Of a stretch of DNA of 64,000 nucleotides, positions 39,938 through 45,244 are shown one piece after another. The DNA is from Gemmatimonadales bacterium (lineage in GTDB: Bacteria > Gemmatimonadota > Gemmatimonadetes > Gemmatimonadales > GWC2-71-9), in the NCBI GenBank assembly GCA_019637315.1, contig JAHBVU010000004.1:186001-250000 (forward strand). The letters run 5' to 3'. Made by a program: the position numbers and the translations under genes. Position 1 is the first letter of the stretch, and each line of letters starts with the position of its first letter. The notes under the pieces were generated by a model. The model did no database searches. It was not told the DNA's origin and saw only the letters and a program-made list of their open reading frames with translations.

Positions 39938-39965
39938 CCGGCATACTCAGCTGGCTCCGTAAGCC

Positions 39966-40002
39966 ACGAAGGGCGAACGCCACCTCTGCGTTCGCCCTTC
40001 GT
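39966..40002 (+). terminator. Intrinsic terminator with 15-bp perfect stem
   Basis: Arm 39966-39980 (ACGAAGGGCGAACGC) pairs perfectly with 39988-40002 over a 7-nt loop and is followed by CGTTTCC. It lies 29 nt after the stop at 39937. Confidence 0.85.
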
Positions 40003-40119
40003 CGTTTCCGGACGGACCGGCAGTAGCCCCTCGGCGAACAACGCCATACCCCCTTTTTCGGGATCCGGCCCTCCACCCTTGCGGCCACCGCGTCCGAGCG
40101 CCATATCAAGGGCAGACGC

Positions 40120-40916: not shown

Positions 40917-41519
40917 ATGCTCCCTTCGGACATCGAGCGGGCGCTCCAGCTGGTGGGAGAGCTGCTCGCGGCGCGCCAGGTCAATTTCCGAATTGCCGTC
41001 ATCGGCGGGTCAGCCCTGAACCTGCTCGGGCTCGTTTCGCGTGCCACCACCGACGTGGACATCTTAGCCTTCGGCAAGCCGCCTGACACTCGCGGAGCGA
41101 TCGAGCTGGGCCCGCCCGAGGAGCCCCTCCCAGCGGCCCTCTCGAATGCCGCTGCCATCGTCGCAAAAGACTTAGGATTGGACCCTCACTGGCTCAACAC
41201 CGGTCCTGCTTCTCAGTGGCAGACAGGTCTGCCACCAGGCCTCGAGGGTCGTGTTCACTGGCGACTGTATGGCGGCGCACTCTGGGTCGGCATCGTCGAT
41301 CGCTACGATCTGATCTTCTTCAAGCTGTACGCAGCCGCCGACGATCGCGGCCCTTCGAGCGTGCATTTCCAGGACCTGATTGCCCTCCGTCCAACCGACG
41401 GCGAACTCGCAGCGGCCGCAAGCTGGGTCAGGAGTCAGGATCCTGGCGTCGACTTCGGCAGAACCGTTTCCAACGTGGTTTCTCATGCCCAACAGTATCG
41501 CGATCGACTTCGCCGCTAG
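40917..41519 (+). CDS. DUF6036-like nucleotidyltransferase
   Basis: This 200-aa protein carries the nucleotidyltransferase fold signature FRIAVIGGSALNLLGLVSRAT followed by TDVDIL. GG plus D-x-D is the minimal active site, of the kind annotated DUF6036 or AbiEii-like. The second half has LWVGIVDRYDLIFFKLYAAADDRG and FQDLIALRPTDGELAAA, which fits the C-terminal helices of these proteins. It starts at ATG 40917 after an AT-rich promoter. The next gene begins inside its last 35 bp, so the two are coupled. The gene pair resembles a toxin-antitoxin or abortive-infection module. Confidence 0.72.
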   Translation: MLPSDIERALQLVGELLAARQVNFRIAVIGGSALNLLGLVSRATTDVDILAFGKPPDTRGAIELGPPEEPLPAALSNAAAIVAKDLGLDPHWLNTGPASQWQTGLPPGLEGRVHWRLYGGALWVGIVDRYDLIFFKLYAAADDRGPSSVHFQDLIALRPTDGELAAAASWVRSQDPGVDFGRTVSNVVSHAQQYRDRLRR

Positions 41520-42444
41520 CCTGCGCCAGGCAACCCTGGAGGTTATTTGGCGCCAGTGGGGAACGCTCGGTGCAACCGTGTCCAGCGGTGCCCCGACTCG
41601 GACAACCATCGATCCCGAGGCCCTGATCCTGACCTCGCTCTGGATGATGGATCACGAGCGACGCTTGGCAGACGTTATCTGGTCCTGGGTCGATCGCAAC
41701 TCCGCTGTCATCAGTATTCAGCGCCTCGGCAACCTCCGCGTCGGCCTGCCGCCAATCGTGTCGACGCGCCTCGAGTCACTCGCCCAGGAGCGGGTCCGAA
41801 ACGCCAGGGACGCTCGATGGCGTTCGCTCAGTTCGACCGACGCTGCTCCCCTGAGCAAGCGAGCCGATAAGATCCGCGCTGTCGAGCCTCGGCTGACCTC
41901 GTGGGCCACCCTGATGGTACAGCTCCGAATGGGCATGGGTGTTGGCGTCAAGGCTGACGTGCTGAGCTTCATTCTCGGCCTCAACATGCACCTGCCTGAG
42001 TGGGCCAGTGTGACGATGATTGCAGACGCCATCGGCTATACCACCGCTGCCGTTCGCCGTGCCGCGGACGATCTGGCCCGAGCGCGCTTCATCCGCAACC
42101 TCGATACGGCCGAGTCCGATGGGGGCACCCGGATGTTCAGCGGGAACCCGTCGGCTTGGGCCGGTATCCTTGGCGTAAGCCCCACCATTCCGGCCTGGGG
42201 ATACTGGCGGGAGCGGTATCGTTTCGTCATCGACGTGGCGACCTGGCACGATCACGAGCTCGAACACGCCACCACACCGTATGCTCGGGACGTCGCCGCA
42301 CGCGAGATCCTCAAGCGTCACCGAACGGCGCTGCGCAGGGATCGGATCATCGACCCGTTCGAGTCGAGCAGCGACGGCTCGACGCTCGCCGATCTCGCCG
42401 CAGCCTCGGAGGCGCTGGCGAGGTTCTGGGTCAGTCACGCCTAG
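41485..42444 (+). CDS. Winged-helix partner of the DUF6036-like nucleotidyltransferase
   Basis: The protein has about 319 residues from ATG 41485, overlapping the previous gene by 35 bp. The N-terminal half is helical and contains LTSLWMMDHERRLADVIWSWV. A winged-helix-like segment follows at about 155-215 (VLSFILGLNMHLPEWASVTM, ADAIGYTTAAVRRAADDLARA, RFIRNLD). The C-terminal half has YWRERYRFVIDVATWHDHE. In AbiE-type modules the partner antitoxin is a winged-helix repressor. This protein is longer and not obviously AbiEi, so the analogy is based on gene order and the helix-turn-helix only. Confidence 0.62.
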   Translation: MPNSIAIDFAASLRQATLEVIWRQWGTLGATVSSGAPTRTTIDPEALILTSLWMMDHERRLADVIWSWVDRNSAVISIQRLGNLRVGLPPIVSTRLESLAQERVRNARDARWRSLSSTDAAPLSKRADKIRAVEPRLTSWATLMVQLRMGMGVGVKADVLSFILGLNMHLPEWASVTMIADAIGYTTAAVRRAADDLARARFIRNLDTAESDGGTRMFSGNPSAWAGILGVSPTIPAWGYWRERYRFVIDVATWHDHELEHATTPYARDVAAREILKRHRTALRRDRIIDPFESSSDGSTLADLAAASEALARFWVSHA

Positions 42445-42594
42445 AACGAGACCGGATGTCCTTCACCGGTGTTGGTACGGGATCGAGCAATCTTTCGGCG
42501 GGGAGTACGCCAAGCTGGTCGAGAACGCGCAGATTCGGTATACCGATCAGTTTGAGAACCGCACCCGAGGAATCTCTCAGTCTGCCGATGATCG

Positions 42595-43752
42595 TTACTT
42601 GAGGATCTCACCGCCGTGCAGGCGGCGGAGAAAGGTGTCGACCGGCAGGACACGAGTCCCGTCGACCTCGAGTTCACTGTCGCCGCGATAGACGACGTAG
42701 CTTCGAACATCTGCCGCCATCCCCGCTTTCAGCGCGCGGATCCCGGCACAGTACTCCCGGCGGTACCGGCGAGCGGATTTCACCTCGATCGCCACGATCT
42801 TCTTACCATGCCACCACACGAAATCGACTTCCCCGCCGCTCGGCGTTGCCCAGTAGCCGAGAAAGCCCTTGATCCCGGCATAGTGCATGTACGCCCGTAT
42901 CTCGTGAAGGATCAGATGCTCCAGCAGCACGCCGTCCCAGTCGGCGGACATCGGCTGGTCGAACCCTCCGGCAGCCGCATGCAGCACGCCCGGATCGAAC
43001 CAGTAGAACTTAGATTGCGCGACCTCCTTGACCTTGGCCCGCGGGCGGTAAGCGGGAAGCCAATCACCGATCAGCGTGTCGACCAGGATTTCGAAATATC
43101 CACGCGCCGTTTCGCGCGAGACGCCGGCGTCTCTGGCCAGGCCCGACACGTTCGTGGTCTGCCCGGCCGCCAGCGCCGCCACTTCCAGGAACCGGCTGAA
43201 GCTCCCGAGATCCCGCGCGAGCCCCTCAGCCCGAATCTCCTCGGCAAGGTAGGTCGTCACGTACGCCCGGAGGTAATCCTCGCGGGTGTCGTCGTCTTCC
43301 GCGACCACGCTGAGTGGCATGGAACCGTACCGCAACCGTTGCTCCACCGGCATCGAGAAGCCCGTCTCGGCCGCCGTTAGCGGGTAAAGCTTGCGCAGAA
43401 CCGCGCGGCCGGCGAGCAGGTTCGCCGCTCCACGCCTGAGCTTTCGGGCCGACGAACCGGTGAGCACGAACTTCCGGTAGCCCTTTTCCTCCATGAGGTA
43501 GTGCACCTCGTCGAGCAGCCGGGGCACGCGCTGCACTTCATCGATCACGACCCAGTCGGTTTTCGGCCGTGCCAATACTGCCGCGCGGAAGAGCGCCGGA
43601 TCGTGCGCATACCGCACCGTATTCTCCGTCATGAGCAGGTTGACGACGAAGGCGTCGTCGAACCGGGAGCGGATCCAGGTGCTCTTGCCGGTGCCCCGCG
43701 GCCCGAACAGAAAGAAGGATCCACGGGGCGGAACCAGAGATCGTGTAAACAT
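42595..43752 (-). CDS. AAA_14/DUF4143 ATP-binding protein
   Basis: This 385-aa protein has Walker A GPRGTGKS near residue 20, Walker B DWVVIDEVQRVPRLL near 68 and the sensor-like LTGSSARKLRRGAANLLAGR. It then has the family segment DYLRAYVTTYLAEEIRAEGL. DUF4143 occupies the C-terminal half: a winged-helix-like NVSGLARDAGVSRETARGYF and the endonuclease-like fold GGEVDFVWWHGKKIVAIEVKSA. Members are widespread, often horizontally moved, and without a settled function. I use ATG 43752 because a promoter lies 8 nt upstream. GTG and TTG codons just before it lie inside a palindrome. Confidence 0.88.
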   Translation of the reverse strand: MFTRSLVPPRGSFFLFGPRGTGKSTWIRSRFDDAFVVNLLMTENTVRYAHDPALFRAAVLARPKTDWVVIDEVQRVPRLLDEVHYLMEEKGYRKFVLTGSSARKLRRGAANLLAGRAVLRKLYPLTAAETGFSMPVEQRLRYGSMPLSVVAEDDDTREDYLRAYVTTYLAEEIRAEGLARDLGSFSRFLEVAALAAGQTTNVSGLARDAGVSRETARGYFEILVDTLIGDWLPAYRPRAKVKEVAQSKFYWFDPGVLHAAAGGFDQPMSADWDGVLLEHLILHEIRAYMHYAGIKGFLGYWATPSGGEVDFVWWHGKKIVAIEVKSARRYRREYCAGIRALKAGMAADVRSYVVYRGDSELEVDGTRVLPVDTFLRRLHGGEILK

Positions 43753-43790
43753 CGACACCAAATTTACCGTAAATTTGGTGTCGTCGTCAA
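43753..43790 (-). promoter_or_regulatory. Leaderless promoter with 31-bp palindrome before the AAA_14 gene
   Basis: On the minus strand TTGACG (43790-43785), an 18-bp spacer, TAAATT (43766-43761) and 8 nt lead to ATG 43752, without room for a ribosome site. A perfect palindrome with 15-bp arms (43753-43767 and 43769-43783, one base between) ends at the base before the start codon. It covers spacer, -10 and start point. Confidence 0.6.
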
Positions 43791-43828
43791 CAGGCCTCCC
43801 GAATGACGGTTCCCCGCCTCGGTGAGGC

Positions 43829-45244
43829 TCACCGGATCGCGTCTGTCTGACCGACTGCCCGATATACCGCCACCAGGGCCGTCACCGCCTCCGTCCGCCC
43901 CTGCGCCAGCTGATCCTGCGCCGCCAGCATCGACCGCTCCGCATCGAGCACCTGCAGAAAGTCCGCCACTCCGCCTTCGAACCGAAGCCGTGCCAGCTCC
44001 GCTGCCCGACCGCTCGCGTCCGCAGCCTCCTCGAGCCGAGCCAGCCGCTCCCTCGCCTTGGTGTAGGCCACCAGCCCGCTCTCGACTTCTTCCCGCGCCA
44101 GCAGCACCGTCTGCCGATACCGCGCCTCGGCCAGCGCCTCGAGCGCGCGCGCCGCATCGACGCCAGCCTTGACCCGCCCGAGGTTGAGCGCCGGCCAGGT
44201 GAGCACCGGCCCCACCGCATAGCGGCCGCTGCCCGACTTCGTCAGCCCATCGAACTCGGTCGACGTGTACCCCGCCGTGCCGCCCAGATTGAGCCTCGGC
44301 AGGTACTCGGCCTTGGCCGCCCCGACGAAGGCCGTCTCCGCCGCCAGCCGCCGCTCCGCCGCCCGCACGTCGGGGCGGGCCCGGACCAGCGCGTCCGGCT
44401 CAGCCAGCGAGAGCGCCGCAGGAAGGCTGGGCAGCGGCGCCCCGCCCCCGGTCAGCTCCGCACCGAGCGTCTGCGGCTCCCGACCGATCAGTACCCCGAT
44501 CCGATGCCGCGCCGCCGCGACCCGCGACTCCAGGGTCGGAATCATTGCCAGGGTGCTGCTGAGCTGAGCCCGGGCCCGCTCGGTGTCGAACTCGGTGCCC
44601 CGACCCGCCTCGAGCCGATCCCGAGTGAGCTGCAGCGTGCGGCGCTGATTCTCCGCGTTCTGCTCCGCCACCCGAAGCTGGTCCTCCGCGCCCCGAAGCT
44701 CGTAGTACGCCCCGGCCACCGCAGCGGCCAGCACCCGGTGCACGTCCCGCAAGTCCTCACCCGCCGAGGCCGAGAGCTCGCCGTAGCCGCGGAGCGACCG
44801 GCGGAGTCGGCCGAACACGTCGATTTCCCACGACGCGCGCACCTCGGCGTCCCAAAGCCCGCGGTCGGGCACGGCCAGGCCGAACGCCGCCTCCGCAATC
44901 CGCTGCCGGGTGTAGCCCCCGGCCACCGATACCTCCGGCACGAGGTCCAGCACCGCCTGCGACCGCGCCGCGCGCGCCTGCCGCACCCGCGCCTCGGCCT
45001 GCTGTGCAGTCGGACTCGCCCGCAGGGCCTCTTCGGTCAGTCGAGCCAGGGTCGTGTCGCCCAGCGTCTGCCAGAAGCCGAACGCGTCGGTCACCGTGTC
45101 GGCGCGAGCCGGTGCTGCTACCATCCGCCCGAGCGGCGCGGGCGACCACGACGCGACGGCCCGAGTCCCCGTCGCCGCGGCTCCTGCGCTCGGCGCCGCC
45201 ACGAGCACGGCGCCGGCGGTCGCTGCCATCCATATCCTACGCAT
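43829..45244 (-). CDS. RND efflux outer-membrane factor (OprM/TolC family)
   Basis: This 471-aa protein has a signal peptide and two OEP repeats. The first contains LARLTEEALRASPTAQQAEARVRQARAA-like helices and WEIDVFGRLRRSLRGY; the second contains RPDVRAAERRLAAETAFVGAAKAEYLPRL and WPALNLGRVKAG. This is the standard outer-membrane channel of tripartite pumps. There is no lipobox cysteine, unlike many NodT-type members. It is the last gene of arsR-adaptor-permease-channel and overlaps the permease gene by 8 bp (45237-45244). Confidence 0.93.
   Translation of the reverse strand: MRRIWMAATAGAVLVAAPSAGAAATGTRAVASWSPAPLGRMVAAPARADTVTDAFGFWQTLGDTTLARLTEEALRASPTAQQAEARVRQARAARSQAVLDLVPEVSVAGGYTRQRIAEAAFGLAVPDRGLWDAEVRASWEIDVFGRLRRSLRGYGELSASAGEDLRDVHRVLAAAVAGAYYELRGAEDQLRVAEQNAENQRRTLQLTRDRLEAGRGTEFDTERARAQLSSTLAMIPTLESRVAAARHRIGVLIGREPQTLGAELTGGGAPLPSLPAALSLAEPDALVRARPDVRAAERRLAAETAFVGAAKAEYLPRLNLGGTAGYTSTEFDGLTKSGSGRYAVGPVLTWPALNLGRVKAGVDAARALEALAEARYRQTVLLAREEVESGLVAYTKARERLARLEEAADASGRAAELARLRFEGGVADFLQVLDAERSMLAAQDQLAQGRTEAVTALVAVYRAVGQTDAIR

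Follow-up and report, generated by a model that had tools for sequence, protein, structure and literature searches.

We found that an AAA_14/DUF4143 gene in the window (the whole 64,000-nucleotide stretch of Gemmatimonadales bacterium DNA analysed here) starts immediately after a perfect 31-bp palindrome that covers its predicted promoter. We propose that the encoded protein represses its own leaderless promoter through this private operator, which would travel with the gene, and we give this reading a probability of roughly 0.7. The case is made by computation, from the palindrome itself, its conservation, covariation within the dyad, the leaderless layout, the predicted fold, co-variation of the operator with the recognition helix, and the compactness of the unit. 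Autorepression had been suggested in an initial annotation of this DNA. It is supported computationally by the conserved operator, the winged helix and the helix co-variation, whose strength depends on how half-sites are aligned, and comparison with relatives supports extending it from the window gene to what may be a common rule of the family. The features discussed below are as follows.

43753–43783, no strand: perfect palindrome, putative operator (arms of 15 bp, 1-bp centre; direct reading)
43744–43792, no strand: extended imperfect dyad (24-base arms, from the -35 to codon 3)
43785–43790, minus strand: -35-like hexamer TTGACG (promoter scan), within the imperfect dyad extension
43761–43766, minus strand: -10-like hexamer TAAATT (promoter scan), inside the right half of the palindrome
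42595–43752, minus strand: AAA_14 + DUF4143 gene, 385 aa, with a PADLOC PDC-S01 match (Pfam, PADLOC, AlphaFold2 model)
43681–43704, minus strand: Walker A GPRGTGKS, residues 17–24 (G17, R19, G22 and K23 invariant in 87 proteins)
43057–43209, minus strand: winged helix-turn-helix, residues 182–232 or thereabouts (model secondary structure; covered by the 2qen/2fna alignment)
43078–43116, minus strand: predicted recognition helix, residues 213–225 (AlphaFold2 model)
42778–42831, minus strand: PD-(D/E)XK-like motif E308-x-D310...E323-x-K325 (conservation in 87 proteins)

The palindrome reads CGACACCAAATTTAC-C-GTAAATTTGGTGTCG, with both 15-base arms fully complementary around a single C and the last base adjoining ATG 43752 of the minus-strand gene. 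A simple calculation puts the expected number of perfect 15-base arm pairs at fixed spacing at about 6e-5 per 64 kb. A repeat search lengthened the arms to 43744–43767 and 43769–43792 (24 bases, 83% complementary), giving a 49-bp dyad. The sole promoter-like site in 42400–44000 was TTGACG-18 nt-TAAATT on the minus strand (shuffles average 0.2). Direct reading and the promoter scan thus agree with the initial annotation both on the palindrome, with its 15-bp arms and 1-base centre, and on its placement over the -10, the spacer and the likely start, abutting the ATG; more exactly, it overlies most of the spacer, the -10 and the predicted transcription start, and the -35 lies only in the imperfect extension. 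Because only 8 bases separate the -10 from the ATG, transcription is predicted to start at about the A of the ATG, and the gene is apparently leaderless. An efflux gene (OEP family) upstream on the same strand has its stop ∼40 bp before the -35. The operator core occurs once in the 3.9-Mb genome, at the window site, whether searched as 17 bases (up to two mismatches) or as 25 bases (up to three), and the pattern CCAAATTTACNGTAAATTTGG had 0 matches in the viral contig collection searched.

In our model the protein is a STAND/NLR-like ATPase that carries a winged helix and, C-terminally, a McrC-like PD-(D/E)XK domain. The Pfam models AAA_14 (7.7e-21; 74.9 bits against a gathering score of 27) and DUF4143 (1.3e-28; 100.2 bits against 28.1) both matched above cut-off. 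Seven PDC-S01 models of PADLOC matched as well (best 2.9e-53), with the match judged by E-value, PADLOC's own PDC-S01 cut-offs being absent from the search output. The AlphaFold2 model (mean pLDDT 93.3) comprises an ATPase, a winged helix and a C-terminal domain. Residues 1–262 align with 2qen and 2fna (Z 15.0–15.2, rmsd 3.0–3.2, 240–242 residues), and the model has the NB–helical–winged-helix order of a STAND-type ATPase (Z 15 with 2qen/2fna, 13.4 with RPP1). The winged-helix-like segment noted earlier from sequence is borne out by this predicted fold, and by HTH_IclR and HTH_5 Pfam models that score above their cut-offs at residues 225–261 of the Thermus HB27 homologue. Modelled alone, the C-terminal domain (pLDDT 88.4) gave weak matches to McrC, Can2 and Holliday resolvases (Hjc), with a best E of 2.5e-4. 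Predicted fold and conservation indicate a PD-(D/E)XK fold with its D...(D/E)xK residues: among 87 family proteins E308 and D310 are invariant and E323 and K325 are conserved in at least 90%, and the Walker A and Walker B residues are invariant. Sequence searches found no significant relative in the PDB (best E 0.35), no match to PHROG families up to E 0.1, and no close relative in the viral contigs searched.

A scan of genome contigs returned 10 loci, seven of them 66%–78% identical to the window protein (record titles Thermoanaerobaculia, Acidobacteriota, Gemmatimonadaceae, Acidobacteria, Deinococcota, Blastocatellia and Polyangiaceae), and searches of phylum samples added two more orthologues, L014 (75%) and L101 (69%). 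All 10 close orthologue loci (window included, several phyla) carry a related sequence at the same distance from the ATG. In eight loci compared with the window by blastn, similarity starts 29–52 bases 5' of the ATG and ends within about 35 bases of the stop in seven (∼180 bases short of it in L008); none of the eight has flanks alignable with those of the window, and we found no relative of the window copy holding both flanks. Over the extended dyad, 82.5% of the 240 pair cells form when the ten loci, the window's among them, are aligned. The covariation score was 0.187, compared with 0.113 ± 0.014 in shuffled data (0/500 as high), and it fell to 0.109 or less once the alignment was slid by one to three columns. 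Absence of the palindrome from orthologous loci had been named beforehand as evidence against an operator. Instead, a dyad over the core promoter is conserved amid unrelated flanks, as for an autorepressor operator, and is nearly lost in one orthologue (L007, score 5). At L009 and L010 a change of frame or an in-frame stop breaks the DUF4143 gene, while the operator sequence is intact, which hints at loss of the protein.

The family was found in 119 of 298 genomes in a sample of the window's phylum (protein search, E ≤ 0.001), and in 66 of 347 and 36 of 282 genomes of two further phylum samples (E ≤ 1e-60). From the loci returned we drew a comparison set of 101 genes, each with a distinct upstream and a protein no shorter than 330 aa, and a set of 99 upstreams. 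Start codons in the sampled genomes were picked by script and not taken from annotation. Both counts leave out L001 and L003 (the window itself), L009, L048 and L068 (interrupted gene, start unassigned), matches below 200 bits, identical upstreams, and starts near a locus end (<400 bases for the 99-gene set, <75 bases for the 101-gene set); the 330-aa minimum of the 101-gene set also excludes the interrupted L010 and L049. Across the 101 genes, Shine-Dalgarno-like 4-mers at -16 to -5 are depleted (one gene, vs. 6.8 in shuffles, range 2–12), and TTGAC occurs 43 times at -70 to -11 (vs. 5.8 in shuffles, 7-fold), 14 times at -40. A centred dyad (at least 10 of 14 pairs) was present in 59 of the 101, compared with 3.7% of 2020 shuffles, and the centres cluster at -16, -7 and -23 from the start. 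Gapped inverted repeats scoring 8 or more were found in 44 of 99 upstreams (2.7% of shuffles), and in control stretches in 6/99 at -200 to -130 and 2/99 inside the gene. When the centre was picked on alternate positions and complementarity scored on the remaining ones, held-out complementarity was 0.453 vs. 0.252 ± 0.010. Eight plasmid members with annotated starts, hand-picked from 60 of 233 records, gave a clear promoter repeat in Allochromatium (shuffle P = 0.015), Runella (P < 0.005), Alisedimentitalea (P = 0.04) and Acidithiobacillus (P < 0.005), and none in Simkania, Rhizobium, Agrobacterium and Thermus HB8. Since these four members lack a clear repeat and 42 of the 101 family genes lack a strong dyad, the promoter dyad is common in the DUF4143 family and not universal by the measure used.

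The sequence of the dyad differs between subfamilies: CACCAAATTTACGGTAAATTTGGTG in that of the window, and elsewhere TTCAAATTATCATGATAATTTGAA, TCGTCATTTT..., or ACTTCCATTTTG...CAAAATGGAAGT. Half-sites agree at ∼0.35 between genes whose proteins are 35%–45% identical; within one operator, arm-to-arm agreement is 0.78 (in the 59 strong dyads, themselves selected for arm agreement). A further 47 genes, mostly paralogues from four genomes together with L002 of the window genome and two genes shared with the first set, L039 and L104, carry repeats of unlike sequence, with 15 scoring 9 or more (0.4% of shuffles). L002, the second DUF4143 gene of the window genome (29% identical), has a different repeat, TACCGGGAAAAT-18-ATTTTCCCGGTA. 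Close orthologues carry sequences related to the palindrome, and distant subfamilies and paralogues carry different palindromes. DUF4143 subfamilies appear each to own a distinct operator. As a separate observation, two genomes are rich in copies, with 30 tblastn matches to the DUF4143 protein in G017 (4.5 Mb, L157–L181) and 31 in G854 (7 Mb, L182–L196), some genes giving two; their promoter repeats are unlike one another and form a natural set for orthogonality.

We compared residue sameness with base sameness in the outer arms of the operator over pairs of genes, with the effect of overall protein identity removed. The helix window tested comprised 12 residues, 211–222 (the predicted helix itself being 213–225), and in the main test half-sites were placed by the motif [AT]4 G, derived from the same upstreams and not from the proteins. 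With half-sites aligned in this way, the helix window ranked 1/364 for outer-arm triplets, columns 214, 215 and 212 ranked 4, 5 and 9 of 341, and seven other outer-arm definitions, including the non-coding left arm alone, gave ranks 1–3. As controls, the helix window ranked 335 and 86 for distal DNA and 99 for the DNA of codons 3–4, where residues 1–12 came first, as expected; for core operator bases its ranks were fairly high (28 and 11). When the set was pruned at 90%, 70% and 60% identity (n = 94, 58 and 35), the motif-aligned ranks were 1, 2 and 1. At each of these levels 0/200 label permutations scored as high for the helix, and the top-scoring window of each permutation, whichever it was, came up to the helix score in 0, 12 and 13 of 200, respectively. 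At 50% pruning (n = 13) there was no co-variation signal in either register, motif-aligned or dyad.

Under the dyad-symmetry register alone, the helix window ranked 7, 44 and 28 of about 365 in the sets pruned to 90%, 70% and 60%, and 9, 19, 32, 75 and 7 in sets selected for their dyad strength or centre. In five of the six runs in this register with n of at least 48, 0/200 label permutations scored as high for the helix; stretches 248–259 and 355–366 outscored the helix window. The protein's own predicted DNA-reading helix accordingly ranks 1–3 for operator specificity with motif-aligned half-sites and 7–75 with the plain dyad, the strength depending on half-site alignment. We regard this as good but not conclusive support for the view that the winged helix may recognize the protein's own operator. 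Because the site changes together with the predicted DNA-reading helix, each copy may shut itself off through a private site.

In the mechanism we propose, a single gene would control itself by negative feedback, with the palindrome as its operator. The winged helix, acting probably as a dimer or larger oligomer, would bind the dyad centred 16 bp before the ATG. This dyad overlies both the spacer and the -10 of the leaderless promoter, so the bound protein would exclude RNA polymerase, holding a potentially harmful ATPase-nuclease at a low level. Each half-site would combine an A/T-rich inner part, which in the right half also supplies the -10, with roughly four outer bases that vary from subfamily to subfamily and are matched by the recognition helix; in this way many paralogues of one genome would be insulated from one another. 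Binding, oligomeric state and repression, like the function of the protein, are what we infer from the computed evidence. A broader reading, possible though rather unlikely, is that the winged helix reads its private palindrome while resting and occupies its own promoter, until an ATP- or signal-driven rearrangement frees the promoter and arms the nuclease at once. Derepression would then be coupled to activation in orthogonal 1.2-kb one-gene circuits, dozens of which could coexist per genome, since the outer arm changes in step with the recognition helix.

Together with its promoter and operator, the gene makes up a self-contained unit of ∼1.2 kb that occurs in unrelated surroundings. In loci L276 and L032, identity to L017 is 89%–91% over a stretch that opens with GTTGACA, the -35 on the dyad's left edge, and closes near the stop codon, with nothing shared on either side; L275, of the same genus, shares the L017-type left edge at the -35. 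At L147 the operator is the left edge of conservation, and the 3' flank is common to some relatives. Whole-locus searches with L017 and L147 in their genera (20 spans read) showed neither a target-site duplication nor a clean empty site. At L017 the cassette replaces about 2.8 kb or more that relatives hold between the same flanks, and because of this other DNA no simple insertion with duplication was seen there. This locus, with L271–L274, is a variable spot within one genus, where the DUF4143 unit stands in place of that DNA.

The usual readers of palindromic operators are dedicated dimeric repressors, of which defence islands make use (RptR), so the palindrome might be the operator of another regulator, from the host or the defence neighbourhood, that merely controls the DUF4143 gene. 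We think this improbable: the operator class follows the DUF4143 lineage across unrelated loci and phyla, its core has one genome copy, paralogues of one genome carry unlike operators and would need many regulators, and the co-variation peaks at the protein's own recognition helix (with motif-aligned half-sites). It is also quite improbable that the protein binds the palindrome to activate the gene, or to signal infection on being released from it, rather than simply to repress, given that the dyad overlaps the -10 and the start, the position of a repressor. In favour of such a role, STAND relatives include the activator IniR (PMC5760070), and Thermus HB27 TT_P0211 (AAA 14, DUF4143, HTH) is reported to rise 6.6-fold with plasmid DNA; however, the rise was reported only for the Ago-carrying strain, and other genes, many near CRISPR loci, rose alongside (PMC4406477). 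The gene at pTT27 209853–211073 is probably TT_P0211, judging by its domains and place. By eye it carries TGAATGACTATCATTCA three bases 5' of the ATG; the best repeat found by script is a different hairpin further upstream.

The inverted repeat could also act in RNA, as a start-codon hairpin that controls how an mRNA initiated further upstream is translated: the dyad stops at the start codon, and the same-strand efflux gene ends close enough to the -35 (∼40 bp) for read-through RNA to carry the hairpin. The promoter-like pair over the repeat, however, predicts a leaderless RNA without the hairpin, and the depletion of Shine-Dalgarno-like 4-mers and the co-variation of outer-arm bases with the predicted DNA-reading helix likewise make this very improbable. 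Equally hard to credit is a palindrome that serves chiefly to mark where a mobile cassette ends, as a recombination or nuclease target on which the PD-(D/E)XK domain acts by cutting or joining, any regulation being secondary. The conserved nuclease motif, the left edge shared by L275, L276 and L032 with L017, and the similarity that L276 and L032 keep up to the stop codon between unrelated flanks all fit such a role. Against it stand the replacement at L017, with no target-site duplication or clean empty site seen, and the lack of a comparable 3'-end site in the cassette edges inspected; selection on the operator alone would equally yield a sharp left edge.

The preferred reading, a gene repressed by its own product, bears on a candidate defence family. 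PDC-S01, a single-gene candidate with an ATPase and a PD-(D/E)XK domain, is reported to rank fourth in frequency among prokaryotic defence systems, and most PDCs are said still to await experimental validation (PMC12988326). The window protein matches PDC-S01 models and has the same ATPase and PD-(D/E)XK make-up, its suspected role against viruses being that of a candidate only. The accessible part of that source (PMC12988326) describes no regulation for PDC-S01, whereas the window unit has a proposed operator. Searches for DUF4143, COG1373, AAA_14 and PDC-S01 in the literature within reach (most subscription journals and bioRxiv preprints lay outside it) found no regulation study, in line with the initial annotation, which knew of no regulatory circuit for DUF4143 ATPases. 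We propose that the operator is part of the DUF4143/PDC-S01 unit and private to each subfamily. If the loop is real, it would offer a first handle on what PDC-S01 proteins bind, a 31-bp site for simple gel-shift or reporter assays of the effects of ATP and infection, a large natural collection of matched helix–operator pairs from which winged-helix specificity could be decoded, and an explanation of how one genome can house tens of copies without cross-talk.

Among known systems, the archaeal STAND-type ATPases SSO1545 (2fna) and PABY2304 (2qen) resemble residues 1–262, with the winged-helix region in the aligned range and the C-terminal domain of the window protein beyond it. We know of no operator for either. 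Plant NLRs and prokaryotic Avs5 share the fold over residues 1–271 (RPP1 Z 13.4, Avs5 Z 11.0); by comparison, the window protein is short and without sensor repeats, has a nuclease-like C terminus, and is proposed to recognize its own site sequence-specifically. The NLR Rx1 is reported to bind and distort DNA (PMC4599002). The C-terminal domain resembles McrC of McrBC (Foldseek E 2.5e-4), but the window protein joins ATPase and nuclease-like domain in one chain and adds a winged helix; we identified in it no domain for reading modified DNA. RptR is reported to bind a 6-bp palindrome at its own promoter, overlapping the -10, with negative autoregulation (PMC12255303). The window site is likewise palindromic over the -10, with autorepression proposed; RptR, however, is a small dedicated repressor, whereas in the window the proposed effector itself would repress.

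Several smaller observations concern the surroundings. A type I restriction system is nearby, its hsdM 4.5 kb from the window copy. Beside the DUF4143 gene, 40917–42444 holds a weak match to a DUF6036 nucleotidyltransferase (below cut-off), followed by an overlapping frame of no assigned family, possibly a toxin–antitoxin-like pair. An inverted repeat at 39956–40012 (25-nt arms, 88% complementary, 7-nt loop) lies between two plus-strand frames and is either terminator-like or a piece of a small element. Finally, the orthologue copies L006 and L014, from different genomes, share a neighbour, since the frames that follow them (after 1904 and 2653, respectively) begin alike with MAITNQERVGKAMELLRAG... 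(translated by eye); this neighbour may be of the HEPN/Swt1 type.
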